NCBI GenBank assembly: GCA_029858505.1
Contig: JAOUEW010000002.1
Span: 1 to 64,000 of the forward strand
DNA from: Deltaproteobacteria bacterium
GTDB taxonomy: Bacteria > SAR324 > JACQKK01
Length of the DNA: 64,000 nucleotides
Direction: 5' to 3'
Part shown: piece after piece, positions 23,857 to 44,096 of the stretch
Layout of the letters: each line of letters begins with the position of its first letter
Position numbering within the stretch: position 1 is the stretch's first letter
The notes under the pieces: model-generated
What the model saw: only the letters and a program-made list of their open reading frames with translations
Told to the model about the DNA's origin: nothing
Database searches by the model: none
Made by a program: the position numbers and the translations under genes

Positions 23857-24067
23857 GGGGCGGCGGCAGGGAGGGTGCGGGTGACAATGCGGGTTCAGCC
23901 CACAGGGTATCACACCCCCCGGATGAGGCAACGGTTCCCCCTTAGCCTGGGTCTTAGCCCATGGTGGTACATGGAGATTGCGCCTTTACGAAAGTTGCGT
24001 TTTTCCGCCTAATGTGCTTAATATGCGCCATTTTGGGCGCTATGGTTTCCTTCTCCTGGGTAAAGCG

Positions 24068-26905
24068 ATGTTCTCTCTTCGCGGTGTTATTCTGCCTGTT
24101 TCCCTGGCCCTCCCGCTGGTCTTGTCTAGCTGCAATATCCCCAAGGCGTACAGGGGAACGGAGTTCCTGCTGCCCACCTGCGGCTACTGCCCAGACATCG
24201 CCCCCCCGGCGGCGGTGACCACCCCCGCCAACGTGCCGGTGACCCTCACCTACACGGTCACCGACACCGACAGCCCGGTGGTGACCCTGGCAGCGGTCAA
24301 GGCCCCCACCAAGGGCACGCTCTCGGCGTTTACCCTGGCCACCACCACGGGCAACATGACCAGCGGTTATACGTTTACCTTCACGGGCACCTACACCCCA
24401 AACGCCACCATGGCCGGGGCGGATTCCTTCGACCTGCAGGCCACCGACAATTCCCCCACCCCCAACGTGTCGCTGGTACCCAAGGTGAACGTAACCGTGA
24501 CCCCCTACCTCACCGGCATCACGGTGGCTCCGGCGAATCCTTTGGTGCCCAGGGGCACCACCAAGCAGTTCAGCGCGTCGGGGGCTTACAACGATGGCGT
24601 TGCCCGCCCCCTGCCCAATGCCTACACGGCTGCCCCCACCTGGAGCAGCGGCACCCCGGCCAACGCCACCATCAACAGCACGGGGTTGGCTTCGTTGCCG
24701 GCCACCGGAACCATCACGGGCACGTCCGTCATCACCGCCACCAGCGGGCTCATTTCTGGTACCACCACCCTCACCGTGGACATGCCCACCCTGGTCAGCA
24801 TTGCCGTGACTCCTGGCAACGTCACCGTGCCCAGGGGCACCAGCCAGCAATTCGCCGCCACGGGAACCTTTGTTGACGGAACCACCGGGGTCATCACAAC
24901 CCTGATGACCTGGTCCAGCGGCACCACCACCAACGCCACCATTGTCAGCACCTCTGGCTTGGCCACCGCCATCAACACCGGCAACATCACGGGTACTTCT
25001 CTCATCACCGCTACCGACCCGGCCAGCGGAAAGAAGGGAACCGCCACCCTCACCGTGGGCAACCCTAACCTAGTGAGCATCGCCGTGGGGCCGGGGCCGG
25101 GCTTCACCGTGCCCCGGGGCACCACCCAGCAGTTCACCGCCACGGGAACCTACTCCGATACCCAGGCGTTGACCTTGCCCAGCGTTTACACCGCCGCCCC
25201 CACCTGGAGCAGCCTCACCACCACCAATGCCACCGTGAACGCCACTGGCCTTGCCACGGCGGTAAACGGGGGAGCCATCGGTGGAACATCTTCTATCCGG
25301 GCAACCAGCGGTGCCATCATTGGCAGTTCTACCCTCACCGTGGGCAATCCCAACTTGGTCAGCATTGCGGTAACCCCGGCCAATGCCACCATCCTCACTC
25401 GGCAGACCCAGCAATACACCGCCACCGGAACGTTCTCAGATACCACGGTGGTGCCCATTTCCACCTACGGCTATACCGCAACCTGGACCTCCTCTAACCT
25501 CAATTCGGCTACCATTTCTGCCGCGGGCTTGGCTACGGTGGTGTATGCCGGGGTGGGCACCGGAACCATCAGCGCAACCAGTGGGGGTGTCACCGGCTCC
25601 ACGGGCCTCACCACTGTTCTTCAGCAAACCTGGGTTAGCGGGAGTAACACGACGGGTGCCCTAGGGGTATATGGCACCCAGGGCGTTGCCGCTGCCGCCA
25701 ACGTGCCGGGGGCAAGGGATAGCAGTATTTCTTGGGCAGGCACGGCGGGCGACCTATGGCTGTTTGGGGGAAATGGCTTTGCCACCGCCGCAGGAGGGCC
25801 GACCTTTCTAAATGATCTTTGGAAATTTAACCCCACCACGGGCCAATGGACCTGGGTTAGCGGCAGCAGTGGGTATAGTGCCCTGGGGGTGTACGGAACC
25901 CTAGGTGTCGCCGCCGCCACCAACGTGCCGGGGGCTAGGTATTACAGTGTTTCTTGGACAGACACGGCGGGGAACCTGTGGTTGTTCGGGGGAAATGGCT
26001 ATGGCGCAGCAGCGGCGTTGGGTAATCTGAACGACCTGTGGAAATGGAACGGTACCCAATGGACTTGGATTAGCGGAAAAAACGCGATAAGTGCCACTGG
26101 AGCATATGGCACCAAAGGCATCGCCGCCGCAGGCAACGTGCCGGGGGCACGTAGAAACAGCATTTCCTGGGCAGACACGGCGGGGAACCTGTGGCTGCTC
26201 GGGGGATTCGGTAATGACACCACCACAACGGCGGGCTACTTGAATGACCTGTGGAAATTTAACATCGCCACCAGCCAATGGACCTGGGTCAGCGGGAGTA
26301 ACACGACGGGTGCCCTGGGGGTGTATGGCACCAAAGGCGTCGCTGCCGCTACCAACGTGCCGGGGGCTAGATTTGGCAGCGCTACCTGGATAGACACGGC
26401 GGGAAACCTGTGGCTTTTCGGGGGGCAAGGTTTTAGTGCCTCTGGGCCGGCAGGCTGGCTGAACGACCTGTGGAAATGGAACGGCACTCAATGGACCTGG
26501 GTCAGCGGAGGCAGCGCGGTAAGTGCCACCGGGGTGTATGGCACCAAAGGCACCGCCGCCGCCGCCAACGTGCCTGGAAGCCGATACATTAGTGTTTCTT
26601 GGATAGACGCAGGGGGGAACCTGTGGTTGCTAGGAGGGTATGGGTTTGGAACCACTACATCGGGCTATCTGAACGACCTGTGGAAATTTAACCCCGCCAC
26701 CGGCCAGTGGACTTGGGTCAGCGGCGGCAGCGCGTTGGGTGCCCTGGGGGTGTATGGCACCCAGGGCACCCCCGCTGCCACCAACGTGCCGGGGGCACGG
26801 CAGGCCAGCATCTCCTGGAAAGACACGGCGGGGAATCTGTGGCTGTTTGGAGGAAACAATGGATTATCGAGTGTCATGAACGACCTGTGGAAGTTGAGCC
26901 CGTAA
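24068..26905 (+). CDS. Large lipoprotein with BIG2-like and Kelch-like repeats
   Basis: A 945-residue predicted surface lipoprotein. The start at 24068 gives a short signal ending in the lipobox LVLSSC (Cys22); an upstream in-frame ATG would bury it. After a cadherin/Big_9-like segment (VTDTDSPVVTLAAVKAPTKG) come four bacterial Ig-like (BIG2) units, each starting LVSIAV-P or similar and containing VPRGT-QQF-ATGT and a TWSS strand. The C-terminal ~430 residues hold six repeats with the core TWVSG, ALGVYGT, NVPGAR, then LWLFGG and LNDLWKF. These are Kelch/galactose-oxidase-like blades, so a six-bladed propeller is likely. No enzymatic residue is evident; adhesion or polysaccharide binding is plausible. 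A strong terminator follows. Confidence 0.82.
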   Translation: MFSLRGVILPVSLALPLVLSSCNIPKAYRGTEFLLPTCGYCPDIAPPAAVTTPANVPVTLTYTVTDTDSPVVTLAAVKAPTKGTLSAFTLATTTGNMTSGYTFTFTGTYTPNATMAGADSFDLQATDNSPTPNVSLVPKVNVTVTPYLTGITVAPANPLVPRGTTKQFSASGAYNDGVARPLPNAYTAAPTWSSGTPANATINSTGLASLPATGTITGTSVITATSGLISGTTTLTVDMPTLVSIAVTPGNVTVPRGTSQQFAATGTFVDGTTGVITTLMTWSSGTTTNATIVSTSGLATAINTGNITGTSLITATDPASGKKGTATLTVGNPNLVSIAVGPGPGFTVPRGTTQQFTATGTYSDTQALTLPSVYTAAPTWSSLTTTNATVNATGLATAVNGGAIGGTSSIRATSGAIIGSSTLTVGNPNLVSIAVTPANATILTRQTQQYTATGTFSDTTVVPISTYGYTATWTSSNLNSATISAAGLATVVYAGVGTGTISATSGGVTGSTGLTTVLQQTWVSGSNTTGALGVYGTQGVAAAANVPGARDSSISWAGTAGDLWLFGGNGFATAAGGPTFLNDLWKFNPTTGQWTWVSGSSGYSALGVYGTLGVAAATNVPGARYYSVSWTDTAGNLWLFGGNGYGAAAALGNLNDLWKWNGTQWTWISGKNAISATGAYGTKGIAAAGNVPGARRNSISWADTAGNLWLLGGFGNDTTTTAGYLNDLWKFNIATSQWTWVSGSNTTGALGVYGTKGVAAATNVPGARFGSATWIDTAGNLWLFGGQGFSASGPAGWLNDLWKWNGTQWTWVSGGSAVSATGVYGTKGTAAAANVPGSRYISVSWIDAGGNLWLLGGYGFGTTTSGYLNDLWKFNPATGQWTWVSGGSALGALGVYGTQGTPAATNVPGARQASISWKDTAGNLWLFGGNNGLSSVMNDLWKLSP

Positions 26906-28251: not shown

Positions 28252-28626
28252 GGGAGTTCACGAGGACATATCTTTGAAATTACAGGCTATGCGCCATGGG
28301 TCTGTCTGGTTATCCTATAAAAAATGTTGAGGGTTAAAGATTGTGATTGACTCCCTCCCCCTGTTTTTGATACGGATAGTTTCCAAAGACCATAGGTCTG
28401 GATGGACGTCATCATCCTGTGAGAAAACTGAAATTTAAAAGGTTTCCCCCCTTTTTCCTAGGGCGGTGCCCGCGGGGGGGCGGTGTGCAGAGAGCGTTAG
28501 GAGTGTTAGGCAGAGAGCCCTAAAGTTTAATTATTTATTTGTGAATTATTCTATGAAGGGGTGATGAGCCCCGACCCTATTCCGGGGCCTTATAACCAAG
28601 GTCCTTTTCATTCAGGAGATACCAAG
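28252..28626 (+). promoter_or_regulatory. Upstream region of the filament cluster
   Basis: This 375-bp gap carries no supported gene. Near its end (about 28518-28555) is an unusually AT-rich stretch typical of a strong promoter with an UP-like element. I cannot fix a single -35/-10 pair. A direct repeat GTTAGGAGTGTTAGG lies just before it. AGGAGATACCAAG gives a good ribosome site for the ATG at 28627. Confidence 0.5.
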
Positions 28627-30447
28627 ATGGCAGGCATCAATTTCAAGGCTGGTCCCAAGATGGTTCATCCCGAGGCACCCTCTGCGGTGGGCTCTCGGAA
28701 CTCCCTGAACCGCGACGGGAGAAATGAGTACAACGAAGGGCAGATGATGATTGATGAGGAGGTGGATAAGCTGATTAACCACGTCCAAGAAAAACTGCCC
28801 CCTGAAGTGCTGCAGGAACTGAACGTGATGGGGAACGTGAAGTCTCACCTGCACAACTACTTCAACCAGTCTTACCAAAACATGCTCAACCGTTACTTGG
28901 TAACGGCCGAGGATGAGTTGTCCAAAAAAATTCGGGACATGCTGGACAAAGAGGAAAACAAAGCCCTCAACCGCTACACGCCCAAAGAAATCCGCGAACT
29001 GGTGGAACAAGCTGGCGACCCCAAGGTGTTCAACACCGGCGAGGTGGAAAAATCCATGGTGAACATCATGGGCCACCTGCAGGGTCACTTGGCCAAGGGC
29101 TCTACCGAGTTTGAAGGCCTCACCACGCACATCTTGATGCAGCGCAACGACGTGGGCGGCCTGATTGCCGGCGAAAACGCCTACTCCATTCTGAAGGCCT
29201 CGTTTAAAGACCACTACTTCAAGCCCGACACCGTGATGGAAGTAAACGTGGCCTTGAATATTTTGGATCACGAGTTGATCAGCGCCGTGGTGCCCTACTA
29301 CGTCACCACCGAAGCTCTGGTGAAGGAAATCATCGCGGGGCAAATTCACGAGTTGATTGACCGCGAAATTGCCGACGTGAACAAGCAATTGGAAGCCGAA
29401 GGCCGCAACAAGCTTTCCGCCAACGAGCAGGTGTTTGAGAAAATCAAAGCCCTGGAAAACCACGTGGACGACGACGCGGATGACGAAGACTCCAAGCGCT
29501 ACCAATACATTTCCATGGGGTTCATGGAGCGCCTGAAAAACATGGGTGCCGAATTGGACAACATTCCCGCCGATGCCGATGGCGTGACCCAAACCATCGT
29601 GCGGTTTTTGAAAGCCGAAAACCTGCACAACCGGGGCTGGAGTTCCGCGGTGAACAACCTGACCCGCATTCTGGATGACACCCGGTTGGGCTATCAATAC
29701 GTGGAAAACCTGAAAGACACCCGTCGGCTGTCCATCCGTGAATACGAGCAGACCGACATCTCCCGGCTGCCCGACGAGCGCTACAACTTGTCTCTTCGCT
29801 ACCTGACCCGCGAACAGTTGGTGGAAGACCAAATCGCCTACTCTGCCCAAATTAGCGAGTTCCGCCGCGAAGTGATGCGGTTGTGGGACGTGGTGCAGGG
29901 CATTTACCACGAAGAAAAAGCCAAACAAAAACTGCGGGATTGGGATGACGTGGTGAACTCTACCCTCAGCCGCCGCGGTCGGGGCGGTGCCGGATGGTTT
30001 GAACCCGGCAAAGAGGGTGGCCCGCAATGGAACGAAATCACCTTCATTCAGCGCAAGCTGACCAACCTGGAAGAAATGAACCAGACCTATGCCATGCTGG
30101 TGACCGATTTCCAGGAGCGCTTTCGGATTGTCCGCCGCCGCTTGAACGAAATCTTTGACACGGCCTTCCCGGAACACCGGATGGTGGTGGAGCAGCGGTT
30201 GAACTTCCTGGAAACCCAGTTTTCCGCCTTCATGGCCGAGGTGAACCCGTACCACATTCAGCCAGGCCTGGTGCTGGATCTCCGCATGACCTCCATCAAG
30301 CGGGGAAAAACCACCGTGAAAATGATGGCCAACGTGCTGAACCACTATTTGATGTCACTCTCCAAGGATTATGTGATGGGGACGGTGGGTCAGTCTCACC
30401 GCCACGCGAACGTGGGCGATGCCATGGGTTCGTTCGGGGAAGCCTAG
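28627..30447 (+). CDS. CfpA-like cytoplasmic filament protein, paralogue 1
   Basis: A 606-residue cytoplasmic, mostly helical protein without signal or membrane segment. It closely parallels the product at 34616-36538. Shared landmarks are HPE-PSAVGSRNSL, DEEVDK, KLPPEV, MNRYL-like NRYLVTAEDEL, KVFNTGEVEKSMVNIMGHLQGHL, GENAYSILK, LDHELIS, DSKRY, NRGW...NTLTRILDDTRLGYQY, LPDERY, and a C-terminal NPYHIQPGLVLDL with TSIKRGKTT. From memory these match CfpA, the ribbon-forming cytoplasmic filament protein of spirochaetes, including the FNTGEIEKS block, the NPYHVQPG block and the overall length. The homology is recalled, not searched. It starts at 28627 after AGGAG. It heads a four-gene cluster and is followed by a 12-bp hairpin that may favour its mRNA segment. 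Confidence 0.75.
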   Translation: MAGINFKAGPKMVHPEAPSAVGSRNSLNRDGRNEYNEGQMMIDEEVDKLINHVQEKLPPEVLQELNVMGNVKSHLHNYFNQSYQNMLNRYLVTAEDELSKKIRDMLDKEENKALNRYTPKEIRELVEQAGDPKVFNTGEVEKSMVNIMGHLQGHLAKGSTEFEGLTTHILMQRNDVGGLIAGENAYSILKASFKDHYFKPDTVMEVNVALNILDHELISAVVPYYVTTEALVKEIIAGQIHELIDREIADVNKQLEAEGRNKLSANEQVFEKIKALENHVDDDADDEDSKRYQYISMGFMERLKNMGAELDNIPADADGVTQTIVRFLKAENLHNRGWSSAVNNLTRILDDTRLGYQYVENLKDTRRLSIREYEQTDISRLPDERYNLSLRYLTREQLVEDQIAYSAQISEFRREVMRLWDVVQGIYHEEKAKQKLRDWDDVVNSTLSRRGRGGAGWFEPGKEGGPQWNEITFIQRKLTNLEEMNQTYAMLVTDFQERFRIVRRRLNEIFDTAFPEHRMVVEQRLNFLETQFSAFMAEVNPYHIQPGLVLDLRMTSIKRGKTTVKMMANVLNHYLMSLSKDYVMGTVGQSHRHANVGDAMGSFGEA

Positions 30448-30604: not shown

Positions 30605-31831
30605 ATGACCAACGAGTACGCAGCACTTAGCACTCGCAAAGGATTTAACCGGTCTCTGAGCCACTTCCGGCTGGTGACCCAGTTGTCGGAACAGGCTGGG
30701 CAAGGCTTGAACTTGGCCGACCTTGTGGACGACCTGGAAAAAGATAAAAAAATCCAAAAGTCACAAATTGGGCCAATTCTGAACGCCTTGCTGGTGGAAA
30801 AATTTCAATACCAAACGTTGTCGTTCAACTTGGTTCAAGACATGAAAACGTTTGAGGACATTCAATCTCAAACGGAAAAATGGAACCGAGCGGAAATGGT
30901 TGCGGCCTATCACCATCCGCAGTTGGGCATTTCCCTGATCAACCCGAAGCGGAAGAACCATTGGGATGGGGTTCAAGATTTAAGCCGCCATGAATTGGTG
31001 GTGCTGTATGTGAAGGGCGTTCGGGACCAGGATAAAGCCATTGAACCTCAAGTGTTGGCCGGGCTGAAAGCCATGATGAACGGCGGAACGCTTCCGGCGG
31101 GATCTTCGTTCCACGATGCAGCCATTAAGCCCGTGGTGATGAAACCGAAGGTGGTGGAAGCCCCAGCCGAAGCACCCGCGCCCGCCCCTGCTGCGCCGGT
31201 GGCCAAGCCCGCGGCCCCGAAACCCGTGGCGGCAGCGCACACCCGGCCCGGCGCAAAGCCCGCGGTGGTGCCCCCAGCCAGGGGCACGGTGGCCACTAGC
31301 CGCAGGCCCGAAGTGAAACCTGTTGCCAAACCCGGTCGTGTTGGCACCGCGCCCGGCCTGCGCCCGGCCGTTGCCCCACCGTCTCACGCCAAAGGAGGTC
31401 CCGTGTCGAAACCACAACCCCCCACCGCTACCGCCCCCGCGGCCAAGGCGGCCGAAGGCCCAGCGGCGAAAGCCGCCGCCCCAGCAGATGGGGGCAACCG
31501 GGCACGCATGACCCCCAAATACAGCATTCAGGTGACCAACGAGTTGTTCCATAACGGAAACGTGGAAGCCTGGAAAAATATTATTGAATCCTTCAAGGTC
31601 AAGTTCACCACGTTGGAGGTGCACATTTTCCACGATGGCGAAAAGGTAAACGACATCAACTCCTTGTTTAAATGGGGGAAGGTGAAGCACGGAGACGTTC
31701 TTCTCTTTTCCATCTCGGGAGAGGAAATCCAAGGGGTGGCCAAACTGCAACGATACCTGTTTGAAGGCGCCAGTCCGCGTTTCCATAACTTTTTGAAAAA
31801 AGACGTCAACAAGGCTTTGAATCTCTTTTAA
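30605..31831 (+). CDS. Two-domain protein with Pro/Ala linker and HPr-like C-terminus
   Basis: A 408-residue protein. Residues 1-175 form a helical globular domain I do not recognise. Residues 176-300 are a long Pro/Ala/Lys-rich linker. Residues 305-390 form a compact alpha/beta domain with the order and spacing of HPr: strand YSIQVTNE, a His at 316 at the start of helix 1 (LFHNGNVEAWKNIIESF), strand TTLEVHIFHDG, helix NDINSLFKWG, strand GDVLLFSISGEE and helix GVAKLQRYL. H316 lies near the place of the HPr phospho-His, but the surrounding residues differ from GIHARPA. This similarity is my inference. The start at 30605 follows GGAG. The gene lies between a filament gene and a PPDK-like gene, 18 bp before the latter, suggesting phosphotransfer or a relic of it. 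Confidence 0.6.
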   Translation: MTNEYAALSTRKGFNRSLSHFRLVTQLSEQAGQGLNLADLVDDLEKDKKIQKSQIGPILNALLVEKFQYQTLSFNLVQDMKTFEDIQSQTEKWNRAEMVAAYHHPQLGISLINPKRKNHWDGVQDLSRHELVVLYVKGVRDQDKAIEPQVLAGLKAMMNGGTLPAGSSFHDAAIKPVVMKPKVVEAPAEAPAPAPAAPVAKPAAPKPVAAAHTRPGAKPAVVPPARGTVATSRRPEVKPVAKPGRVGTAPGLRPAVAPPSHAKGGPVSKPQPPTATAPAAKAAEGPAAKAAAPADGGNRARMTPKYSIQVTNELFHNGNVEAWKNIIESFKVKFTTLEVHIFHDGEKVNDINSLFKWGKVKHGDVLLFSISGEEIQGVAKLQRYLFEGASPRFHNFLKKDVNKALNLF

Positions 31832-31849
31832 CCGCGACGAAAGAATCCC

Positions 31850-34444
31850 ATGGCTCAGCTGATCGAATTTAACAAGGATGTTTACCTGGAAGGAACCGAT
31901 CTCCAGGAGCGTTTTGGCCTGCGAGGACGAAACGTGATGCAATTGGCCCAATTGAAGGCGCCCATTGCCCCTGGGTTTATGATTGATTCTTCCACCCTGA
32001 CGGGTGGCAAGGTAAAAAACCTGACACGGGCTGAGATCGAAAAAGCGGTCAAGAAAATTGAAAGCCTGACGGGAAAGACCTTTAACAAGGCCGACCGCCC
32101 CATGTTCTTTAAGGTGGTCATTTCTCCCTCGATCCAAATTGGCTCCTTGCGGTCGGTTCATACCGTGGGCATCAGCGATGTGACCGTGCAGGGGTTTGCC
32201 AAATACAGCGGCGAATCCTTTGCCTACGATGAATATCGCCACTACCTAGAGTCGTATGGCTCTCGGTTTATGGGGGTGTCCTCCAGCGAATTCAAGAAAA
32301 TTAAGGATGAAAACCCCAAGGCCAGCCCCAAAGAAATCTGCGCCCTTTATCGAGACAAAGTGGTGCCTGGGTTTCCGCAGGATGGTTACGACCAGTTGTT
32401 GACGGTGCTGACCAACTTGGCCGAGCAATACCTGAGTGATGAAATGAACGAGGGGATTGAGGCCGGGGTGTTGATTCAAATGATGGTGTATGGGAATTTT
32501 GGGAAGAACTCCTACAGTGGCTCTTACTTTACCCGCAATATTGTGACCGGAGAGGCCCAGTTGACCGGGTATTTCGCCCGCAATCAGTTCGATTCCCGGC
32601 CCGACACGGGGGAAGACATCAACAAAATCGGCCCGAAGCACCTGAAAGTGCTAAAGGATTTTGCCACCCAACTGGAAGAAAAGTTTCTCGATATTCGCCA
32701 GGTGAAATTCACCATTGAGGAAGACCGGCTGTGGGTGATCGAGCAAGATCCGGTAGATACCAAATCGACCCAGGCGGAAGTTCGCACCTTCTTGGATTTA
32801 CACAAGAAGGGTCTGATTACCCGTAAAAAGCTGGTGGAAGCCATTCCTCCGGCCCAGATTCAAGACCTTCTCCACCCCGTGATCGACGTGAAGTCGACGC
32901 GGAGCATGGTGAAATTGGTGGGCGGTATCGCGGGCTCTCCTGGGGCCGCCGTGGGCCGCGTGGCGTTCTCCACCGAAAAATTGATGAAAGAATATCATCG
33001 CTGCACGCTGGCGGGCATCAACTCGAACCTGATTCTGGTGCGCCCCCATACCGATGCGGAAGACGTTCAGTCCATCGAGGTGGGCCGGGCGGTGATTGCC
33101 TCGGTGGGTGGATATGCCTCTCACGCCCCGGTGGTGGCTCGCAGTTTAAGAAAGCCCTGCTTGGTGAAAGAAAACATTGAGTACAAAAAAGATCACATTT
33201 TGGTGGAAGGACACCGGATCAACGAGTTTGACGTGGTGTCTTTGGAAGTTCCCACCTACACAGACCCCAGCATGTGGATTGGCGAGGCCAAAATGGTCTA
33301 CCCAGACACGGCTCAGAATGGGTTGGAAGAATACATCGGAGAAGTGGGCGAGTTCGTGAAAGACTTCCAGGTGATGGCCATTGCCGAAAGCGATCGCGAT
33401 ATTGAAGTGGCCCTGAGTTTGGGTGCCACCGGTATTGGGCTGCTTTCCATGGACGGAATGCTGAACCATGAAGCCACCCATGATTCCTTCGTGGAAGCGC
33501 TGCTGACCAAGGAACCCGAGCAGCGGAAGAAGTCTTTGAAGAACGTGGAAGGGAAGTTGATCAAACGCATTGTGGAGATCTTCAAACGGGTGGGTGGACG
33601 GAAGATCATCTTCTTGATGCAAGACAAACCCTTGTACGAATTCCTTCCCCATTCCGAGAAAGAAATGGAGGAAGTGTATGGGAAGATCAGCGGGAAGATG
33701 GGTGTGTCTCTGTCGGAGCTGAAAGCCCGAGCAGGACAACTGCGGAACATTAACCCCATGATGGGGTTGCGGGGTAGCCGTATCGCCATCTCTTACCCTG
33801 ATCTTTACGAAATGCAGTTTGAGGCCATCCTGCGGGCCGCCATGCAGTACTCCGACGGCAAAGCCGGAAAAGTGAATTTCGACCTAATGGTGCCAGCGGT
33901 GATGACCGACGCGGAAATGCGCTTTATCCGCACCGGCCGGAATATTGAAGGCATCATTATTCGCGGATTCCTTGGGGTTGAGAGCGATTTGCTGGAAGAG
34001 TGGAAAATGACCTCCCTTCCCTTCCAATATAAAATCGGCGCCATGATTGAACTGCCGGCTGCCGCCCTGATGGCTGGGCACATGGCCAAACAATCCGAGT
34101 TCTTCTCCATCGGCACCCATACGTTGACCCAAACGACCAACGGAATGTCGCACGACGATATCAATATGTTCCTGCCGTCCTACACCCAGTACGACATTCT
34201 CCGGGATAACCCGTTCCAAATCCTTTCATCTCCGGTGAAGCATCTGATTGCCATGGCCAAAGACTTTGGAAAGGTAACCCGGCCAGACATTCAGGTGGGG
34301 CTGTGCGGTTCCCATGCCTCTGACCCGCTGAATATTAAGTTCGCCTTCGAGGCCAACCTGAACTTTGTGACCTGCAATCCCTATGGAGTGCCTATTGCCA
34401 AGTTGGCGGTGGCTCAAATTGTGGCAAAGAACCAACCCGGTTGA
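31850..34444 (+). CDS. Degenerate pyruvate phosphate dikinase-like protein
   Basis: An 864-residue protein with full PPDK length and order. The N-terminal ATP-grasp half is altered: GGKGAN becomes GLRGRN, the VRSGA-SMPG segment is gone, and the QTR-GKRT motif is replaced by EQDPVDTKST. The swivelling domain keeps the phospho-His in GGYASHAPVVAR (H425). In the PEP barrel, NPMMGLRGSR (R641) and MIE (E734) remain and the catalytic Cys is kept in GLCGSH (C819). RTEHMF has become LSMDGML, and GTNDLTQ is GTHTLTQ (H757 for Asn). It is therefore unlikely to make PEP or pyruvate in the normal way. From memory, spirochaetes also carry a ppdK-annotated gene near cfpA. A role in the filament system is inferred from context. 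Confidence 0.8.
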   Translation: MAQLIEFNKDVYLEGTDLQERFGLRGRNVMQLAQLKAPIAPGFMIDSSTLTGGKVKNLTRAEIEKAVKKIESLTGKTFNKADRPMFFKVVISPSIQIGSLRSVHTVGISDVTVQGFAKYSGESFAYDEYRHYLESYGSRFMGVSSSEFKKIKDENPKASPKEICALYRDKVVPGFPQDGYDQLLTVLTNLAEQYLSDEMNEGIEAGVLIQMMVYGNFGKNSYSGSYFTRNIVTGEAQLTGYFARNQFDSRPDTGEDINKIGPKHLKVLKDFATQLEEKFLDIRQVKFTIEEDRLWVIEQDPVDTKSTQAEVRTFLDLHKKGLITRKKLVEAIPPAQIQDLLHPVIDVKSTRSMVKLVGGIAGSPGAAVGRVAFSTEKLMKEYHRCTLAGINSNLILVRPHTDAEDVQSIEVGRAVIASVGGYASHAPVVARSLRKPCLVKENIEYKKDHILVEGHRINEFDVVSLEVPTYTDPSMWIGEAKMVYPDTAQNGLEEYIGEVGEFVKDFQVMAIAESDRDIEVALSLGATGIGLLSMDGMLNHEATHDSFVEALLTKEPEQRKKSLKNVEGKLIKRIVEIFKRVGGRKIIFLMQDKPLYEFLPHSEKEMEEVYGKISGKMGVSLSELKARAGQLRNINPMMGLRGSRIAISYPDLYEMQFEAILRAAMQYSDGKAGKVNFDLMVPAVMTDAEMRFIRTGRNIEGIIIRGFLGVESDLLEEWKMTSLPFQYKIGAMIELPAAALMAGHMAKQSEFFSIGTHTLTQTTNGMSHDDINMFLPSYTQYDILRDNPFQILSSPVKHLIAMAKDFGKVTRPDIQVGLCGSHASDPLNIKFAFEANLNFVTCNPYGVPIAKLAVAQIVAKNQPG

Positions 34445-34591: not shown

Positions 34592-34615
34592 GTGTTAAAC
34601 CCAAAGGAGATTCCC

Positions 34616-36538
34616 ATGTCTGAGTTCATGGTCAAACACGGCCCGAATGTGATCCATCCAGAAACCCCCAGTGCGGTGGGTTCCCGTAACTCCTTGTTTC
34701 GCGATAGCCGGGACGAATACTCTGAGTCGAGGCTGGTGGTCGACGAGGAAGTCGACAAAATTTTGAACCACATTCACGCCAAACTGCCGCCGGAAGTCGC
34801 CTCTCGGTTGGAAGTGATGGGTTCGGTGAAGTCGAAGCTGCATACGTACTACAACCAGTCCATGCAGAACATGTCCAACCGGTACCTCACCACGTTGGAA
34901 GATGAACTGGGTAAAAAGGTTCGCAACATGATTGACACCGAAGAAATGCGGGGTTTGAATCGCTATGCCCCTCGGTCGGTGTCTTACCTGTTGGACCGCA
35001 TTGCTGGTGGCGACAAGTTCAACACCGGTGAAATTGAAAAATCCATCGTGAACATGTATGGCCACTTGCACGGCCACGTTCAACGGGAAATGAACGACCT
35101 GGAAACCCGCACCAACTCGTTGTTGCGCCGGAAAATTGACGTGGGTGCCTTTGTGCGGGGCGAAAACGCTTACGCCATCGTGAAGTGCTCCTTCCGCGAT
35201 GACCCGCTCAAACCTGAAAACGTAACCCAGGTGAAATTGGCTTTGGGGATTTTGGATTCCGAATTGATCAGCCCCATTTACCCCTGGGCAACCCCTACCC
35301 TGAACATCGTGAAAGACATCGTGTCCAAGCAGATTCAAGATGCTTTGGACAGCGAGTTGGACCAAATCAACGCCAGCTTGGTGGATGAGGGCAAGTCGGA
35401 ATTGACCGCGGAAGAGAAGATTTTCGAGCGGGTCAAAGCCCTGGACAACCACGTGTCGGATGACCTGATGGAAGGCTCCAAACGCTACAGCACCGTGTCC
35501 AAGAAAATCTTTGACGCCGTGGAAGGGCTGGAAGCCACCATTGACTGGAATGACTATGACCCCATGCGCGTGCGGGAAAACACCTTCAAGCTGATTGAAT
35601 CGGAAAACATCCGAAACCGCGGTTACAACACGGCGGTCAACACCTTGACCCACGTGTTGGACTGGAGCCGGATGGGCTATCAGCACATTGAAAACTACAA
35701 GAACTCTCGGGATTGCATCATTCGCGAATACCACGAGACCAATGAGGACTTGCTGCCCGATGAGCGGTATGCTCTGCGCTTGCGGCACCTGACCTACCAC
35801 CAAATTTTGGTGTGGCGCGAAGCCTATCAAGCGCAATTGAGCGAGTTCATCCGCACCGTGATGGAACTGTGGAGCGTGGTGGAGAAAATTTACGAGGAAG
35901 ACCGCAACAAGAACCGGAAAGAAGACTGGGAGTCCTTGTACAACCGCTTGGTGACTTCTGGTGAAGAAGGTGGCTCTTGGATTATGCGCCCACGGTTTGG
36001 CGGCGGTGATGAAGAGGAAGAATCCTCGACCTCTTCGGAAGAAGCTCCGAAGTGGAACGAAATTAACTTCGTGCAGCCCCAGGAAAACGGCCTGACCGCG
36101 GCCAACCCCAAGCTGCAAAATCAATTTTCCGATATCCGCGGGCGGTTTCCCGTGATGCGGGAGCGCCTGGCCAAGGTGTTCGGCGATCTGACCACCGATG
36201 TGCGTGACATTGTGGAAGCTCGGATCACTTTCTTGGAGAACCAGTTCAACCTGTTTGGCATGCAAATCAATCCGTACCATGTGAACCCCGGTGTTCTGCT
36301 GGAGCTTGACATTGTGAGCGTCAAGCGCAAAAACACCACCATGATGGCCATGGCCAACGTGCTGAACGAATTCTTGTCCAGCGTGTCCAAAGGGTTCCAA
36401 GACGCGGCCTTTGCCTCCTTCTCTCGGCGCCGCTCTACTCAACGGGCTGACTTGGCTGAAGGGTTTGGTTCCGCCACCCAGTTGGGAAGCGATGACCAAG
36501 CGCCTGTGGTTGCTCCTCACGAAGAAACGATGGAGTAA
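34616..36538 (+). CDS. CfpA-like cytoplasmic filament protein, paralogue 2
   Basis: A 640-residue, mainly helical cytoplasmic protein paralogous to the product at 28627-30447. It looks closer to recalled spirochaete CfpA: KFNTGEIEKSIVNMYGHLHG, VGAFVRGENAYAIVKCSF, LDSELISPI, GSKRYSTVSKK, NRGYNTAVNTLTHVLDWSR, LPDERYALRL, NPYHVNPGVLLEL, SVKRKNTTMMAMANVLNEF and a tail with FASFSRRRSTQR. A linker at about 455-480 is rich in Glu and Ser. The start at 34616 follows AAAGGAGA seven bases upstream. It is the last gene of the cluster and is closed by a perfect terminator. Two paralogues may co-assemble or form distinct ribbons. Confidence 0.78.
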   Translation: MSEFMVKHGPNVIHPETPSAVGSRNSLFRDSRDEYSESRLVVDEEVDKILNHIHAKLPPEVASRLEVMGSVKSKLHTYYNQSMQNMSNRYLTTLEDELGKKVRNMIDTEEMRGLNRYAPRSVSYLLDRIAGGDKFNTGEIEKSIVNMYGHLHGHVQREMNDLETRTNSLLRRKIDVGAFVRGENAYAIVKCSFRDDPLKPENVTQVKLALGILDSELISPIYPWATPTLNIVKDIVSKQIQDALDSELDQINASLVDEGKSELTAEEKIFERVKALDNHVSDDLMEGSKRYSTVSKKIFDAVEGLEATIDWNDYDPMRVRENTFKLIESENIRNRGYNTAVNTLTHVLDWSRMGYQHIENYKNSRDCIIREYHETNEDLLPDERYALRLRHLTYHQILVWREAYQAQLSEFIRTVMELWSVVEKIYEEDRNKNRKEDWESLYNRLVTSGEEGGSWIMRPRFGGGDEEEESSTSSEEAPKWNEINFVQPQENGLTAANPKLQNQFSDIRGRFPVMRERLAKVFGDLTTDVRDIVEARITFLENQFNLFGMQINPYHVNPGVLLELDIVSVKRKNTTMMAMANVLNEFLSSVSKGFQDAAFASFSRRRSTQRADLAEGFGSATQLGSDDQAPVVAPHEETME

Positions 36539-36613
36539 TCCCTGAGTCCACCGAACCCGGATTAGAACATCTGGGTTCATGGAAACAGATCCAGGAAATA
36601 CATACCGTATTCA

Positions 36614-36642
36614 GGGGCCGGTTATACCGGCCCCTTTTTTTT
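36614..36642 (+). terminator. Rho-independent terminator of the filament cluster
   Basis: GGGGCCGG (36614-36621) and CCGGCCCC (36627-36634) form a perfect 8-bp stem with a 5-nt loop, followed by eight T. Confidence 0.95.
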
Positions 36643-36703
36643 GTGGTTTTTTCAGGCATCGAGAGACCTTGTCTTTTTGGGGGGGTCTTCTTGTGGGTTG
36701 TCA

Positions 36704-36731
36704 TTGCCCCCCATTGCCAACCGGGTATAAT
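36704..36731 (+). promoter_or_regulatory. Probable sigma70 promoter of gspL, leaderless
   Basis: A perfect -10 TATAAT (36726-36731) has a weak -35 TTGCCC (36704-36709) with 16-bp spacing; TTGTCA at 36698 has a 22-bp spacing that is too long. The expected transcription start falls at about 36738, the A of the gspL ATG. No ribosome site is seen, so the mRNA may be leaderless. Confidence 0.55.
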
Positions 36732-36737
36732 ACGGCC

Positions 36738-38882
36738 ATGAACGACTCCTTCCATTTGATTTGTTTGGCCCCTTCCTTTGCCGAATGGGTCACCCTTTCT
36801 GGGGGTCTGCCCAAACAGACCAGCCGACAGGTTGCGTTTAAAATTGAAGAGGGCCAAGACGAGGATGTAAAGGCGTGCTTTTTTCCCACCGATTGGCGGG
36901 TGGATCCCAAAGGGAAAACGCACACGGTGGTGGTCTTATCTTCAGAATGGTGCCGGTACAGAAAACTTTATTTCCCCTTCAAAGACGCTAAAAAAATTCG
37001 ACAAGCCATTCCGTTTGAACTGGAAAGTGATTTACTGGAGGACTTGAACCGGTATGTTTACAATGTACGGATGATTTCCCAGGGGGAGGGGACGCTGGTC
37101 GTGGTCTCGTTGTTGGAAAAGAACATTCTGGAGGAGGTTCTGCGAAGTGTGGAAGGGGGTGGATTTCGCCCTGTCCGGGTGACGGCGTCCTCTGTGGTGC
37201 TCCCGCGAGAGGAAGATAAGAAAGGATTGGAATGTCAGGTGTACTTGGGGCCGGAGGAGGCTGTGGTTGTGTTGGACCAAGATGGGGTTCCCATGACGGC
37301 AAAATCCTTCGAGGTCCCTTCAGCGCCAGGCTTTTCTTCAGAACAAGAAACGATTTCACCGGATCAGGGGTTGTTGAAACTGCAAGAGAGTGCCCGGAGG
37401 GAAGAATTTAGGAACAAAACCAACCGATGGATGGAGGAAATCACTAGGTTTATTCGGAATCTAGCCATGGGGGGAGAAGTTCAGGTACAACTCCATGGTT
37501 TGTATGCTCCCTTGGTGGTCTGGAGGGGAAATAGGATGGAATGGGCGGAGAAAGACGCGGCCCTGCCTGCTGGGTGGCTAGAGGCCGCCAAGGAACGCCT
37601 GAAGGATGAAGAAGAACAAAGGGAGAAGGAAAAAAAAGGGGAGGAAAAGAACGAAGATAAGGCCGAATTAAAAACCAGCGGGCAAGCGGGTCTTGGTAAA
37701 AAACAGTCAGATAAAACGAAACAAATCGCTCTGCAAAAAGAACTGGCCAAGCTGAAAGCGCTGGAAGAAAAAAAACTTCAACGCAGGGATCAAGAAAAAA
37801 AGAAAACCCAGGTACGCGCGAATAAAATATATTCCGACTGGAAAACCAAATATACCCGGTTGAAAGCGCGCCAACGGGCGGATTGGAAAGATTTAAAAAA
37901 CAAACTGTGGGAGGAAAGAAATAAATTCTGGGCGGAAGATAAAACATCAAAGGCCGCGACGAAAAAAGAAAACGCCATGAGGGCCCAGGCCGAACGTTCG
38001 GGGCAATTGGTCGAATATCGCAAAGCGGCGGATGAGCGAGAAACCAAGCGGAAGGAAAATTTGCGGGGGAAGTACGCAAAGTTGAAAGCCCAGCAAGCTC
38101 AAACCCGTAAGACGGCTTGGGCAGACATTAAAAAAGCCCGGCGGGAAATGAAATCCCAATGGAAAACGGAGATTCAGGAGATTTGGGCTGAGTGGGACCA
38201 AAAATTCCCCTTGCCGCAAGATAACGAAAATATCGAGAAACAGAAACAAACAAACACCAGCAAAAAAGAAAAAAAGATTTCTGGGCGATGGTCACTGGGG
38301 GTGGCGATGGAAGCCGTGGCCAACCCGGAGGAACTATGGGGTTCGAGAGAGGGAAATTTTTATCGCAGAATGCCCTCTTTTCAATTCGGAGGGCTCCAAG
38401 GGATTCCCCGCCCCCCTGGCCGGTTGTTGGTGATGGGGATAAGCCTGGTTGCGCTGATGGTGGGAAATTCCACCCTGAACATGACTTTACTCAAGCAAGA
38501 GGATGCGGCCCTCAGCCAAGAGTTAGATCAGATTTATCAGCGCTACCTTCCTCCGGGTTTGGCCCCCGCCGAGCGCATGCGGGTCTTACGGCAAAAGGTA
38601 GATGACTTGGGGAGGACAAAAGGAGCTTCCGGTGGCGAAGGGGTTCGGGCGTTGGCTGTGATGGAGCAGGTGTCGATGGCCGCGGCGGGTTTGGCGGGCC
38701 TAGTGGTGGACAGCGTGATGGTGGATGAGCGGAGCGGTCTGTTATCCGGGCGAGCAACGGATGAAAACAGCCCCCGTGCGTTCCAGCAGAGGCTGGCAAC
38801 GGGCCAAGGGAGAATAACAGGGGAATTGTCGTTCAGCAAGCAGGGAGCAGATACCCGTTTCAACCTGCATTGGTCCTATTAG
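36738..38882 (+). CDS. gspL: GspL-like T2SS protein with coiled-coil insertion
   Basis: A 714-residue protein identified as the T2SS inner-membrane platform protein GspL. The evidence is an actin-like N-terminal part (about 1-275, with IPFELESDLLEDLNRYVYNV), a single TM helix (561-580), a ferredoxin-like periplasmic tail, and its place just before gspM and gspN. GspL recruits the GspE ATPase. It is far longer than usual (about 400 residues). Between the cytoplasmic domain and the TM helix lies a Lys/Glu-rich coiled coil of about 230 residues (282-512) with regularly spaced Trp. The insertion is visibly more AT-rich than its surroundings. The ATG at 36738 is chosen because longer frames run through the terminator. 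GspE is not in this window. Confidence 0.75.
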   Translation: MNDSFHLICLAPSFAEWVTLSGGLPKQTSRQVAFKIEEGQDEDVKACFFPTDWRVDPKGKTHTVVVLSSEWCRYRKLYFPFKDAKKIRQAIPFELESDLLEDLNRYVYNVRMISQGEGTLVVVSLLEKNILEEVLRSVEGGGFRPVRVTASSVVLPREEDKKGLECQVYLGPEEAVVVLDQDGVPMTAKSFEVPSAPGFSSEQETISPDQGLLKLQESARREEFRNKTNRWMEEITRFIRNLAMGGEVQVQLHGLYAPLVVWRGNRMEWAEKDAALPAGWLEAAKERLKDEEEQREKEKKGEEKNEDKAELKTSGQAGLGKKQSDKTKQIALQKELAKLKALEEKKLQRRDQEKKKTQVRANKIYSDWKTKYTRLKARQRADWKDLKNKLWEERNKFWAEDKTSKAATKKENAMRAQAERSGQLVEYRKAADERETKRKENLRGKYAKLKAQQAQTRKTAWADIKKARREMKSQWKTEIQEIWAEWDQKFPLPQDNENIEKQKQTNTSKKEKKISGRWSLGVAMEAVANPEELWGSREGNFYRRMPSFQFGGLQGIPRPPGRLLVMGISLVALMVGNSTLNMTLLKQEDAALSQELDQIYQRYLPPGLAPAERMRVLRQKVDDLGRTKGASGGEGVRALAVMEQVSMAAAGLAGLVVDSVMVDERSGLLSGRATDENSPRAFQQRLATGQGRITGELSFSKQGADTRFNLHWSY

Positions 38883-38891
38883 GAATACAAA

Positions 38892-39566
38892 ATGGCAGCG
38901 GCTGCGAAGACATTCTGGGTAAAGGCCCGGGATGCCATGAAGACGAAGGGGAACCAACTTCTGGCCCAGGTTCGTTCTCGGCTGGGGGTGAAAGGGGCAT
39001 TGGAAAGTGAGGATCACTCGGCCACCCCCACCCGACCTCCGTCTTGGTTCTCGGTGGAGATGGAGCGCTTGGGTTCAAATCTCCGGACGTTTTGGGAGGC
39101 TCGAACCACCCGAGAAAAAGGGCTCATCGGTTTGCTGGGGGGCATGTTGGCGGTGATGATCCTGGTGAGTCTAGTCTCGATGGTGGTGGGCTGGCGGGGT
39201 AACCTGGATGAAAGGGTGGAGACCAAGAGGGAGGAAGTGGCGCAAGCCAGACTTCTGGCCCAGCAAATGGCTTTGCTCGAACAATCTCCCCAGGAGCGAA
39301 TTCCCGAAGGACCCCCTGGTACCGTGGTGGGAACCCTGGCCCAACGGATGGGAGCGGGAGACCGGATTACGGTGACGGAGGGGGCGGGAGGGGAATGGAC
39401 GGTGAGAGGAGGAGGACTTTCTTTAGACGAGGGGGCCTTCTTGTTGTTTAACTTGGAAAAATCTGGCCGCTTTCGGTTGAAACGGGTGGAATGGAAACGG
39501 GGCAGCGGAGAGCCCCCTGGGATGGATGTGGAGCTGATCTTTTTCGACAGGAGTCAAGCCAAGTGA
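38892..39566 (+). CDS. gspM: GspM-like T2SS protein
   Basis: A 224-residue single-pass inner-membrane protein. A basic cytoplasmic N-terminus leads to the typical GspM segment WEARTTREKGLIGLLGGMLAV with the TM helix at about 78-100, then a periplasmic coiled coil and a small ferredoxin-like domain. GspM partners GspL in the secretion platform. The N-terminus is about 60 residues longer than in many GspM proteins. The gene begins 9 bp after gspL, and its stop overlaps the GTG start of the next gene. Confidence 0.75.
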   Translation: MAAAAKTFWVKARDAMKTKGNQLLAQVRSRLGVKGALESEDHSATPTRPPSWFSVEMERLGSNLRTFWEARTTREKGLIGLLGGMLAVMILVSLVSMVVGWRGNLDERVETKREEVAQARLLAQQMALLEQSPQERIPEGPPGTVVGTLAQRMGAGDRITVTEGAGGEWTVRGGGLSLDEGAFLLFNLEKSGRFRLKRVEWKRGSGEPPGMDVELIFFDRSQAK

Positions 39567-40420
39567 ACATCTCTGCTCGAATGAAGGGTGCGGGGGCTGT
39601 GCTGTTCGTGGTTTTATTTATGGTTGGTTTTTTTGTGAACTTCCCCCGAGAATCGGCTACGGAGTCTCTTGCTAGGCGTTTGACCAGGGACGGCATGTTG
39701 GTGGAACTGACGCCCATTCATCCGGTATGGTTTGGGTTGGGGGTAGATGAAGTCAGAATTTCGGAGATGACCCAGAGCGGGCCGGAACTGGTGTTGTCCC
39801 TCCAAGAAGTAAAAATCCCGCTGACCTGGAAGTTATGGCGGGGGCTGACGGCAGAGGGAAAGGTGGGGAAAGAAGGTCAGCTAGAGGGGGTGGTGGAATG
39901 GTGGGGCGGAGGAGTGGAGGTTCAATTCGACCAAGTGTCTTTAGAAGATATTCCTTGGATTGCCCGACAAAAGCCTAAGATTCTCCGAGGGAAACTGACC
40001 GGCATGGGAAGGATCGTTCCGGGTGGACAGGGCGCCCCCCCAAAACAGGCCAACTGGAACCTCACCATGGAAACGCTGTATCTGGAAGGGTGGGAGGTGG
40101 TGGGTCAACCTGTCCCGGTGACACGCATAGATCGGGTAGAGTTTACGGGAATCATGGAGCAATCCATCCAAATTCAAAATTTGGCCTTGCAGGGGGATAT
40201 CGCTGGTTCCATTACCGGAACCATTCAGCCCATGTGGCAATCGCCGGTGATGTCCACGGTGAACCTGGATGTGAACCTGGCCATGCAATACGATTGGATG
40301 AACCAATTGGGGTTGGCCCGGATGTTTCTGCAAGGTTACATGACCGGCAACCAACTTTCGATTGCGGTAAAGGGCCCCTTGATGACGGCTGAAATTCAAC
40401 GGAAAGAGCCCGGGAAATAA
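39563..40420 (+). CDS. gspN: GspN-like T2SS protein
   Basis: A 285-residue protein with one N-terminal TM helix and a long beta-rich periplasmic region, as in the T2SS protein GspN family (Geobacter/Leptospira-type). Segments such as LTPIHPVWFGLGVDEVRIS, then GEVEWWGG-like strands and GSITGTI, fit the repeated beta-sheet pattern. The GTG at 39563 overlaps the gspM stop (GTGA) and has AGGAG nine bases upstream; ATG at 39581 is the alternative. Position after gspL-gspM supports the call. Its role in secretion is accessory. Confidence 0.7.
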   Translation: MNISARMKGAGAVLFVVLFMVGFFVNFPRESATESLARRLTRDGMLVELTPIHPVWFGLGVDEVRISEMTQSGPELVLSLQEVKIPLTWKLWRGLTAEGKVGKEGQLEGVVEWWGGGVEVQFDQVSLEDIPWIARQKPKILRGKLTGMGRIVPGGQGAPPKQANWNLTMETLYLEGWEVVGQPVPVTRIDRVEFTGIMEQSIQIQNLALQGDIAGSITGTIQPMWQSPVMSTVNLDVNLAMQYDWMNQLGLARMFLQGYMTGNQLSIAVKGPLMTAEIQRKEPGK

Positions 40421-40448
40421 TCAAAACACGTTAAGACAGAGCGCGTTG

Positions 40449-41480
40449 ATGGAAAAACCCAACGGATTTTGGTGGATATACGGCCCCTTGGGGCTGGCCT
40501 GGATTGCCGCGTTCGCGGTGGTTTTGTGGGGGCAAACGGCTTCGGCTTTGAATTCCAGCGCGGAGGAAACCGTGCGGGTGAACCGGGGCGAAAGCCTGGG
40601 CATGGCCATTGCCCGTATGACCGAAGAGGGAAAACTGGCCCATCCCCAGGGGTTTCGGTTGCTGGCGGTTATGCGGGGAGACTCTGGCCGCATCAAGGCG
40701 GGAGAATTCGTGGTGTCTCCGGGATTGTCTCCTGGAGGGTTGTTGAATTTGATGGTGTCGGGGGAGTCTCGCCGGTTTCGCCTGACCATCCCCGAGGGAT
40801 TCAACTTGCGGGATGTGGCCGATAAAGTCGAGGCAGAACACAAGGGGAATGGAAAACGTTTCCTGGCGTTATGCCAGAATTCGGCATTCATCGCCACCTT
40901 GGGGCTTCCGTCTTGGGCCAAGGCCCCCACCCTAGAGGGCTTTTTGTACCCGGATACCTACCTGTTTGCCTACGCCACCACCGAGGAGGAAATGATCGCC
41001 TTCATGGTGGAGCGATTTAAGGAGAAAGCCGTGGAGGTCTTGGAGGAAGGGGCTCCGGAAGCGGGGTTAACCCCTTATCAAGCCTTGGTGCTGGCCTCCA
41101 TCGTGGAAAAAGAAACCGGCTTGGCCAGTGAGCGGCCCATGATTTCCGGGGTGTTTCACAACCGCCTGAAGATTCACATGCCGTTGGCCACCGACCCGGC
41201 GGTGATATATGGCGTGCCGAATTTTGACGGGAACCTGACCCGCAGGCATTTGACCACCCCTGGCCCGTATAACACCTACATCAATCAAGGTCTAACCCCC
41301 ACCCCCATCACCAACCCAGGGTTGGATGCCATTCAGGCCGCCATGAAGCCAGCCCGGGTGGAGTATCTGTTTTTCGTGGCCAAGGGAGACGGCTCCCATT
41401 ATTTTTCCAAAGACTTTAAAACCCATTCCGCTGCGGTGAGGAAATACCAAATTCGGCCTCACCGTAAACAAGGGAATTAA
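40449..41480 (+). CDS. mltG: Endolytic murein transglycosylase
   Basis: A 343-residue YceG/MltG protein that cuts nascent glycan strands at the inner membrane. It has an N-terminal TM helix (about 8-30), a LysM-like module (VRVNRGESLGMAIARM) and the catalytic domain with LEGFLYPDTY, the active-site Glu in SIVEKETG, then VFHNRL, PLATDPAVIYG, YNTYINQGLTPTPITNPG and YLFFVAKGDGSHYFS. The length is typical. A TTG one codon upstream is possible, but ATG at 40449 is preferred. It is inserted inside the T2SS operon, between gspN and gspF, where local wall cutting could help assembly of the secretion machine. Confidence 0.95.
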   Translation: MEKPNGFWWIYGPLGLAWIAAFAVVLWGQTASALNSSAEETVRVNRGESLGMAIARMTEEGKLAHPQGFRLLAVMRGDSGRIKAGEFVVSPGLSPGGLLNLMVSGESRRFRLTIPEGFNLRDVADKVEAEHKGNGKRFLALCQNSAFIATLGLPSWAKAPTLEGFLYPDTYLFAYATTEEEMIAFMVERFKEKAVEVLEEGAPEAGLTPYQALVLASIVEKETGLASERPMISGVFHNRLKIHMPLATDPAVIYGVPNFDGNLTRRHLTTPGPYNTYINQGLTPTPITNPGLDAIQAAMKPARVEYLFFVAKGDGSHYFSKDFKTHSAAVRKYQIRPHRKQGN

Positions 41481-41494
41481 CCCCAAAGGTTCCG

Positions 41495-42721: not shown

Positions 42722-42723
42722 CC

Positions 42724-43164
42724 ATGACAAACCGAACACTTCAACAGCGCTCCAGGCGCCGGAAAGGCTTTTCTTTCATCGAAATCATGGTGGTGTTGAT
42801 CATCATCGCCATGATCATGGGGTTGGTGGCAACCCAAATGGTGAATTCCGCAGCGCAGGCCAGGGTGCAAACCACGAAAATTCAAATTCAGTCTCTTATT
42901 TCTTCCCTGGATTTGTACCGGCTGCAAAATGCGAATTACCCGACCACGGAACAAGGGTTGAACGCGTTGGTTAAAATGCCGGAACTGGGGCGGCTGCCCA
43001 CCAACTGGCAGGGCCCCTATCTGCGGAAACTTCCCGCCGATGGCTGGGGGAACGATTTCATATACACCAGCGATGGCAATACCTTTCAGATCATCTCCTA
43101 CGGCAAAGATGGCCAACCGGGCGGAGCGGAGTTGGATGCGGATATCACCAGCGACAAACTGTAA
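42724..43164 (+). CDS. gspG: Major pseudopilin GspG
   Basis: A 146-residue major pseudopilin, the main subunit of the T2SS pseudopilus. The prepilin peptidase site is KG|FSFIEIMVVLIIIAMIMG, with Glu5 of the mature form. The C-terminal globular part has NYPTTEQGLNALV, GPYLRKLP, DGWGNDFIY and SYGKDGQPGG, the calcium-binding signature region of GspG. The length is typical. It begins 2 bp after gspF. Confidence 0.95.
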   Translation: MTNRTLQQRSRRRKGFSFIEIMVVLIIIAMIMGLVATQMVNSAAQARVQTTKIQIQSLISSLDLYRLQNANYPTTEQGLNALVKMPELGRLPTNWQGPYLRKLPADGWGNDFIYTSDGNTFQIISYGKDGQPGGAELDADITSDKL

Positions 43165-43699: not shown

Positions 43700-44096
43700 G
43701 GGGGGGTTTTCCCTGCTGGAAGTGCTGATTGCCATGGCTATTTTATCGCTGGTCATGCTGGCGTTGTATCAAGCCTATTCCACCGTTCTATTTCAAAACG
43801 AATACACCACCCGGCTGTGGCGGGTGATGAACGTGGCCCAGAGGGAAATGCTGGCTTGGGAACGGTTAGGCCGGGCGGAGTTGTCGGTGGACCAGGGGGT
43901 GTACCCCCCCGGCCACCCCCTGGAGGGTTACCAGTGGCGCCGGGAGATTGCCGATGAAGAACCGATTCCGGGGGTGAAGTTGCGGAGGGTGAAGTTGGAA
44001 ATTAGCTGGGAAATGAATGCCCGGCTGGGGCCAGAGGCCACCGATGCCCACCGCAGACAGCGTTACGTGACGGAGGTTTATGTGGAAGCCCTCTGA
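43659..44096 (+). CDS. gspI: Minor pseudopilin GspI
   Basis: A 145-residue minor pseudopilin with the processing site GG|FSLLEVLIAMAILSLVMLAL and a short globular domain typical of GspI. It overlaps gspH by 41 bp and gspJ by 17 bp. GspI, J and K form the tip complex of the pseudopilus. Confidence 0.88.
   Translation: MGQTTTSTARRFGRGGFSLLEVLIAMAILSLVMLALYQAYSTVLFQNEYTTRLWRVMNVAQREMLAWERLGRAELSVDQGVYPPGHPLEGYQWRREIADEEPIPGVKLRRVKLEISWEMNARLGPEATDAHRRQRYVTEVYVEAL

Follow-up and report, generated by a model that had tools for sequence, protein, structure and literature searches.

A tandem HPr-fold protein and a PPDK paralogue beside the cytoplasmic filament gene cfpA: components of a candidate PEP-dependent phosphorelay

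In HPr, the histidine phosphocarrier of the phosphotransferase system (PTS), His15 sits immediately N-terminal to helix 1 and R17 is one of the main contacts with enzyme I (EI) (PMC8509676). Pyruvate phosphate dikinase (PPDK) of Flaveria binds ATP through Arg95 and Glu324 (PMC5507339), which correspond to R92 and E323 in the numbering used below. The third system of relevance is the treponemal cytoplasmic filament protein CfpA; filamentation and condensed chromosomes have been described in a cfpA mutant (PMC3398590). In Treponema denticola, TDE0842–0844 encode CfpA, a hypothetical protein and a ‘pyruvate phosphate dikinase’, and the three genes respond together in co-culture (PMC3914990). When the T. 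denticola envelope fraction was run on a gel, TDE0844 was band 1 and CfpA band 3, both among the intense bands that represent >100 ng or 1% of total protein (PMC3931704). Soluble enzymes of glycolysis are not expected constituents of this fraction. The Treponema pallidum protein TP0746 has been treated as a glycolytic PPDK (PMC10013896).

Here we describe a related gene set in a bacterium that its nearest named relatives place in SAR324 (Candidatus Lambdaproteobacteria), within a stretch of 64,000 nucleotides that was analysed as a whole (the window). The gene of interest begins with an ATG at 30605 and its translation runs for 408 codons, the last of which ends at 31828 and is followed by a stop codon; we call its product HPrL and the PPDK-like product of the next gene PPDKL (Table 1). 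Both lie between two homologues of treponemal CfpA, which score 654 (CfpA-1) and 733 bits (CfpA-2) against a curated NF040882 cut-off of 500, and the same CfpA-2 arrangement is found in sister genomes. SAR324 carries several CfpA paralogues, two of them inside the module in the window. We found neither a regulator or partner of CfpA nor the CfpA-HPrL-PPDKL module described in the literature searched.

Table 1. Coordinates of the module genes, and of domains and residues of HPrL and PPDKL, in the window
Feature	Position	Strand	Basis
CfpA-1, cytoplasmic filament protein A, first module gene	28561..30447	+	NCBIfam NF040882, E 2.8e-196
HPrL, 408 aa, with two HPr-like domains in tandem	30605..31831	+	Translation, orthologues, AlphaFold models; without Pfam match
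HPrL residues 1–66, N-terminal helical bundle	30605..30802	+	AlphaFold helices 11–32, 37–46, 52–66; pLDDT mostly >90
HPrL residues 69–161, first HPr-fold domain, without active-site His	30809..31087	+	VIA-align
HPrL ~residues 164–302, Pro/Ala/Lys-rich flexible linker, boundaries approximate	31094..31510	+	Composition, comparison with relatives
HPrL residues 303–408, second HPr-fold domain, with H316	31511..31828	+	AlphaFold pLDDT 93.9, Foldseek, VIA
HPrL H316, predicted phospho-accepting His directly before helix 1	31550..31552	+	64/64 invariant
HPrL residues 353–363, SLFKWGKVKHG, second near-invariant motif, at HPr helix 2 position	31661..31693	+	
PPDKL, PPDK-like protein, 864 aa	31850..34444	+	TIGR01828 516 bits against cut-off 843; residue mapping
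PPDKL H425, equivalent to C. symbiosum PPDK phospho-His H455	33122..33124	+	Alignment to solved PPDKs
CfpA-2, second filament-protein paralogue, in module of SAR324 f1	34592..36538	+	NF040882, E 4e-220

Searches of Pfam and NCBIfam with HPrL alone gave nothing useful, and PF00381 matched neither the window protein, nor 54 members of the family at E values up to 10, nor any HPrL locus in the genome searches. Sequence-profile matches in the PDB (an RxLR effector at 0.003 over 45 residues, folliculin and ubiquitin) were judged to be chance only. AlphaFold models were built from alignments of the window and locus sequences, 54 for the C-terminal and 40 for the N-terminal domain. The C-terminal model (residues 299–408) had a pLDDT of 93.9 and the element order E-H-E-E-H-E-H, with H316 as model residue 18 and helix 1 spanning model residues 19–35. 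The best 30 Foldseek matches in the PDB were all HPr or Crh (E 0.015, probability up to 0.99). VIA gave a maximum Z of 8.0 (2.5 Å over 81 residues) as compared with at most 6.2 for unrelated rows; other folds' absence from the VIA lists does not count against those folds. A Z of 8 alone is no proof of an HPr fold, and it is the position of the histidine and the context that add support: in a profile alignment with 17 canonical HPr sequences, H316 was aligned with His15 (P 0.014). The first-pass annotation had read the strand-helix order of HPr in the last ~100 residues, with H316 at the start of the first helix, and had proposed a Foldseek comparison with HPr. The predicted topology and the leading matches bear out this reading, helix 1 begins right after H316, and a fold unlike HPr was not predicted.

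The same annotation had tethered this domain by a Pro/Ala/Lys-rich linker to an unknown N-terminal domain. The linker is real: ~residues 164–302 are 21% P, 28% A and 9% K, and its length exceeds that in most relatives, in which it measures 32–160 aa and mostly 45–85. The N-terminal part, on the other hand, contains a second HPr fold that had been overlooked. Its model (pLDDT 92.6) consists of a helical bundle followed by an HPr fold at residues 69–161, which VIA-align superimposed on Escherichia coli HPr with a Z of 8.9 (1.8 Å over 79 residues), non-HPr rows reaching at most 4.0. In 40 sequences, the loop preceding helix 84–90 holds no conserved histidine. An initial guess from the pattern of helices and strands, that this domain was GspE-N/MshEN, was abandoned when Foldseek and VIA gave HPr instead. 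When the profiles of the two HPrL domains were compared, no signal emerged, which lends no support to a recent internal duplication. According to these models, HPrL carries two HPr folds, one of which has a candidate active site.

All 64 orthologues compared, drawn from SAR324 and Spirochaetota, have H316, which lies inside the motif NELFHNGNVEAW; the first-pass annotation had made its reading depend on such conservation, and loss of the histidine among orthologues in these two phyla was not seen. Twelve HPrL proteins added later, some of them perhaps from the same species as members of the 64, agree with this motif pattern. A second motif, LFKWGKVKHG, is similarly constrained, L354, F355, W357 and G363 each being present in 64/64. 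The counterpart of HPr Arg17 is missing, its place being taken by G318 in all 64. HPrL thus resembles HPr and NPr in its predicted beta-alpha-beta-beta-alpha-beta-alpha fold, in a histidine directly before helix 1 and in SLFK at the helix-2 position, but differs in lacking an arginine at +2, in escaping PF00381, in combining two HPr folds with a long linker and an additional helical bundle, in occurring together with a PPDK paralogue in every case checked, and in its linkage to a filament gene. Because of the missing Arg17 and the lack of a PF00381 match, we do not class it as a PTS HPr; it is a conserved but previously unrecognised protein.

SAR324 genomes of the window's family (f1) also carry a second, short HPrL paralogue that consists of the C-terminal domain only and is unlinked to CfpA (for example G000:C1:35046-35330, L141; also L149, L152 and L205-L210). 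These unlinked paralogues keep GNxEAW, with H316 replaced by V, T, E, E, E or R. Retention of the motif without H316 indicates that the histidine is not needed for the fold, and its loss here indicates that only the copies linked to PPDKL have retained it.

The residues of PPDKL were mapped onto the active site of Clostridium symbiosum PPDK and are given in its numbering. The ATP-site residues K22, R92, D321, E323 and Q335 are replaced in every PPDKL checked. In Spirochaetota, K22 has become R (52/52), R92 V, I or L (52/52), D321 mostly Q, S or R, E323 R or K (51/52) and Q335 E or D (50/52); in f1, K22 is R in all, and the window protein has R, V, Q, K and E at the five positions. The new residues are in turn conserved among Spirochaetota, which suggests a new use of the pocket. 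The phospho-histidine H455 is kept in all PPDKL aligned. The PEP site (R561, E563, R617, D620, R665, E745, N768, D769, C831) is intact in 52 + 5 Spirochaetota sequences, one of them being gapped over some of the region, and likewise in six sequences of SAR324 family f3. In the eight f1 proteins, by contrast, R561 is replaced by S, G, A, Q, P or K and D769 by T, I or M, and most of the proteins no longer have R617 and N768; the window protein has S, L, E, H, T and C at R561, R617, E745, N768, D769 and C831. Domain identities follow the same division: the PEP barrel is the best kept domain (64–69%) and the ATP half the least (40–42%) in Spirochaetota and f3, whereas in f1 the swivel domain is the best (71%) and the PEP barrel the worst (60%). 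The neighbour's intact phospho-histidine, noted in the first-pass annotation, is confirmed as H425, but the partner as a whole is not intact in f1.

Ten searched loci of the same genome set supplied bona fide PPDKs, which represent eight distinct genes because two genomes were reached twice; these PPDKs kept all catalytic residues and formed their own clade with a support of 1.0. PPDKL shares with PPDK (TIGR01828) the full-length domain order, the phospho-histidine and, outside f1, the PEP site; it differs in the five replaced ATP-site residues, in scoring under the curated cut-off and in falling in a separate clade. With PTS enzyme I (PF05524 plus PEP-utilizers domains) it would share PEP-driven histidine phosphorylation, an HPr-type partner and independence of nucleotides, although it is built from PPDK, retains a dead ATP-grasp half and lacks the EI helical HPr-binding subdomain, PF05524 giving no match in PPDKL at E values up to 1. 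Judged by these residues and domains, PPDKL is a paralogue of PPDK that qualifies neither as a PPDK nor as an EI.

The gene order CfpA-HPrL-PPDKL is common to Spirochaetota and to SAR324 families f1 and f3. A scan of GTDB genomes for CfpA yielded 80 loci, and in 54 of the 59 from Spirochaetota HPrL lies directly downstream of CfpA. PPDKL follows HPrL in 49 of these, the remaining five stopping at a contig edge; L094, L115, L133 and L139 have CfpA without an adjoining HPrL, and L090 is too short to tell. Among 120 Spirochaetota genomes, 48 have CfpA, of which 47 also have HPrL, and the other 72 have neither (Fisher p 8e-33, uncorrected for relatedness), and in the sole genome with CfpA but no HPrL, CfpA lies at a contig end. 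In three genomes (G117, G124, G149) CfpA, HPrL and PPDKL are all present but unlinked, with an unchanged residue pattern. Four f3 genomes of SAR324 keep CfpA and lack both HPrL and any PPDK-type gene. Synteny identifies TDE0843 as HPrL and TDE0844 as PPDKL. A search for conserved neighbours revealed divergent upstream genes and no obvious fourth member of the module.

From the computed folds, residue patterns, synteny and co-occurrence we infer that HPrL, with its two HPr-fold heads, is a partner of the cytoplasmic filament formed by CfpA, and that a relay with PPDKL was ancestral and probably still operates in Spirochaetota and SAR324 f3. A PPDKL whose PEP site and phospho-histidine are whole while its ATP site is lost looks like a PEP-only donor to HPr. 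PEP would phosphorylate the swivelling histidine (H455), and the phosphate would pass to H316 in the second HPr domain rather than to AMP/PPi, which it could not reach because the ATP half is dead. The long linker would tether this domain to the helical bundle and His-less HPr fold, and that N-terminal part would be expected to dock on the filament or on PPDKL; the phosphorylation state of HPrL would then signal the PEP/pyruvate ratio to the filament. As the first-pass annotation suggested, the linker might also give reach along the filament. In f1, PEP entry looks lost and both histidines persist, so that either another donor serves H316 or the pair is now structural or a remnant. The first-pass suggestion of a phosphorelay or its remnant therefore holds in its first form for the relatives, and ‘remnant’ better fits the window's own genome.

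In favour of the relay we count, besides the features of the two proteins and the shared gene order, the joint absence of HPrL and PPDKL from four CfpA-bearing SAR324 genomes, the co-regulation of TDE0842–0844 (PMC3914990) and the prominence of TDE0844 alongside CfpA in the envelope fraction (PMC3931704). Against it we count the missing Arg17 and PF00381 match, the lack of the EI helical subdomain in PPDKL, a C-domain Z only moderately above that of unrelated rows, the degenerate PEP site of f1, the existence of those four genomes with CfpA but no pair, and the presence of canonical HPr and EI in most of the genomes concerned. On balance, we hold with moderate confidence that phosphate passes, or once passed, from PEP through the PPDKL histidine to H316 at the filament, the window's family retaining a remnant or using another donor.

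The alternative that survives best, unlikely in our estimation but deserving weight, is that HPrL and PPDKL are a purely structural adaptor, a scaffold or cross-bridge for CfpA in which no phosphate moves and H316 serves binding or folding. Both proteins persist as intact ORFs in f1 despite the degenerate PEP site, one of the two HPr folds has no histidine, and the abundance of TDE0844 and its co-fractionation with CfpA would suit a structural part. Treponemal filaments reportedly possess bridging and anchoring components (Izard 2004). A structural role leaves unexplained, however, why 57 Spirochaetota and six f3 sequences combine an intact PEP site and phospho-histidine with a replaced ATP site, and why the unlinked paralogues have lost exactly H316.

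It is improbable, in our view, that HPrL is instead an HPr-like acceptor of canonical EI (PTS or PTS-Ntr), with PPDKL doing something else such as PEP sensing. Of the 16 genomes checked, 15 have a canonical EI, most SAR324 genomes also encode a canonical HPr, and EI would supply a donor for the window's family too. Nevertheless, HPrL tracks PPDKL in presence and absence even where the three genes are unlinked, SAR324 genomes G042, G045, G047 and G049 are without HPrL though they keep canonical HPr, and R17, one of the main EI contacts of HPr (PMC8509676), is missing from HPrL.

There is very little to commend the reading of PPDKL as an ordinary glycolytic PPDK that simply lies beside cfpA, with HPrL unrelated: annotation and the literature assume it (PMC10013896, PMC8525777) and the similarity to PPDK is full-length, but every ATP-site residue checked is replaced, the score is under the NCBIfam cut-off, and the genomes checked usually encode, in addition, a bona fide PPDK whose catalytic residues are all in place. 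Such an over-cut-off PPDK was found in 18 of 19 genome entries (two genomes being counted twice) and in 9 of 12 in a second set; in the window's own genome it falls just below the cut-off. A ubiquitin-like beta-grasp for the C-terminal domain, hinted at by 14 of 54 members that match ubiquitin families of Pfam weakly (best E 0.015), is barely credible and was dropped, since the model has a single strand before helix 1 and the HPr element order, and HPr leads the Foldseek and VIA matches.

Returning to the relay from PPDKL to HPrL, its existence would mean that a PEP-dependent HPr-type relay has evolved by a second route, from PPDK instead of EI, and would tie central metabolism to the bacterial cytoskeleton; the cfpA-adjacent treponemal ‘PPDK’, called glycolytic in the literature, would then probably not be glycolytic. 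The CfpA filament would also gain two candidate partners. In G121, most likely T. pallidum, the module contains an ATP-dead, PEP-intact PPDKL, EI is present and no bona fide PPDK was found in the genome. The fullest form of the proposal, that a filament-bound relay outside the PTS runs from an ATP-stripped PPDK to a double HPr that controls CfpA according to PEP/pyruvate, with TP0746 a relay kinase and not a glycolytic enzyme, we put forward tentatively, its chances falling slightly short of even. The CfpA-linked paralogue of G121 (G121:C1:810752-813313, L167) is the sole full-length PPDK-type gene of that genome.

Several further observations concern CfpA and the surroundings of the module. 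CfpA-bearing SAR324 genomes usually have three CfpA paralogues, as compared with one in nearly all Spirochaetota genomes searched, a third example besides the two in the window being G000:C4:948729-950549; SAR324 family f2 lacks both CfpA and HPrL. In CfpA (window 28627–30444), His150, His154 and His543 are invariant in 88/88 sequences from two phyla, and as possible acceptors or structural residues they offer a lead only. Long minus-strand frames lie antisense to CfpA-1 (28612–30345, 577 aa), HPrL (30980–32242, 420 aa) and CfpA-2 (34595–36580, 661 aa), and are most likely by-products of codon composition. Directly after the filament module lies a type II secretion cluster (window 36579–45960) with GspL, M, F, J, K and pseudopilin-like genes, which includes a YceG/MltG-like gene; GspL follows CfpA-2 in sister genomes too. 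Upstream of RmuC, a large ORF at 23978–26905 encodes bacterial Ig-like and Kelch repeats. In ~40 of the Spirochaetota loci L082-L140, a divergent gene upstream of CfpA encodes what its sequence suggests is a secreted VWA-like protein.
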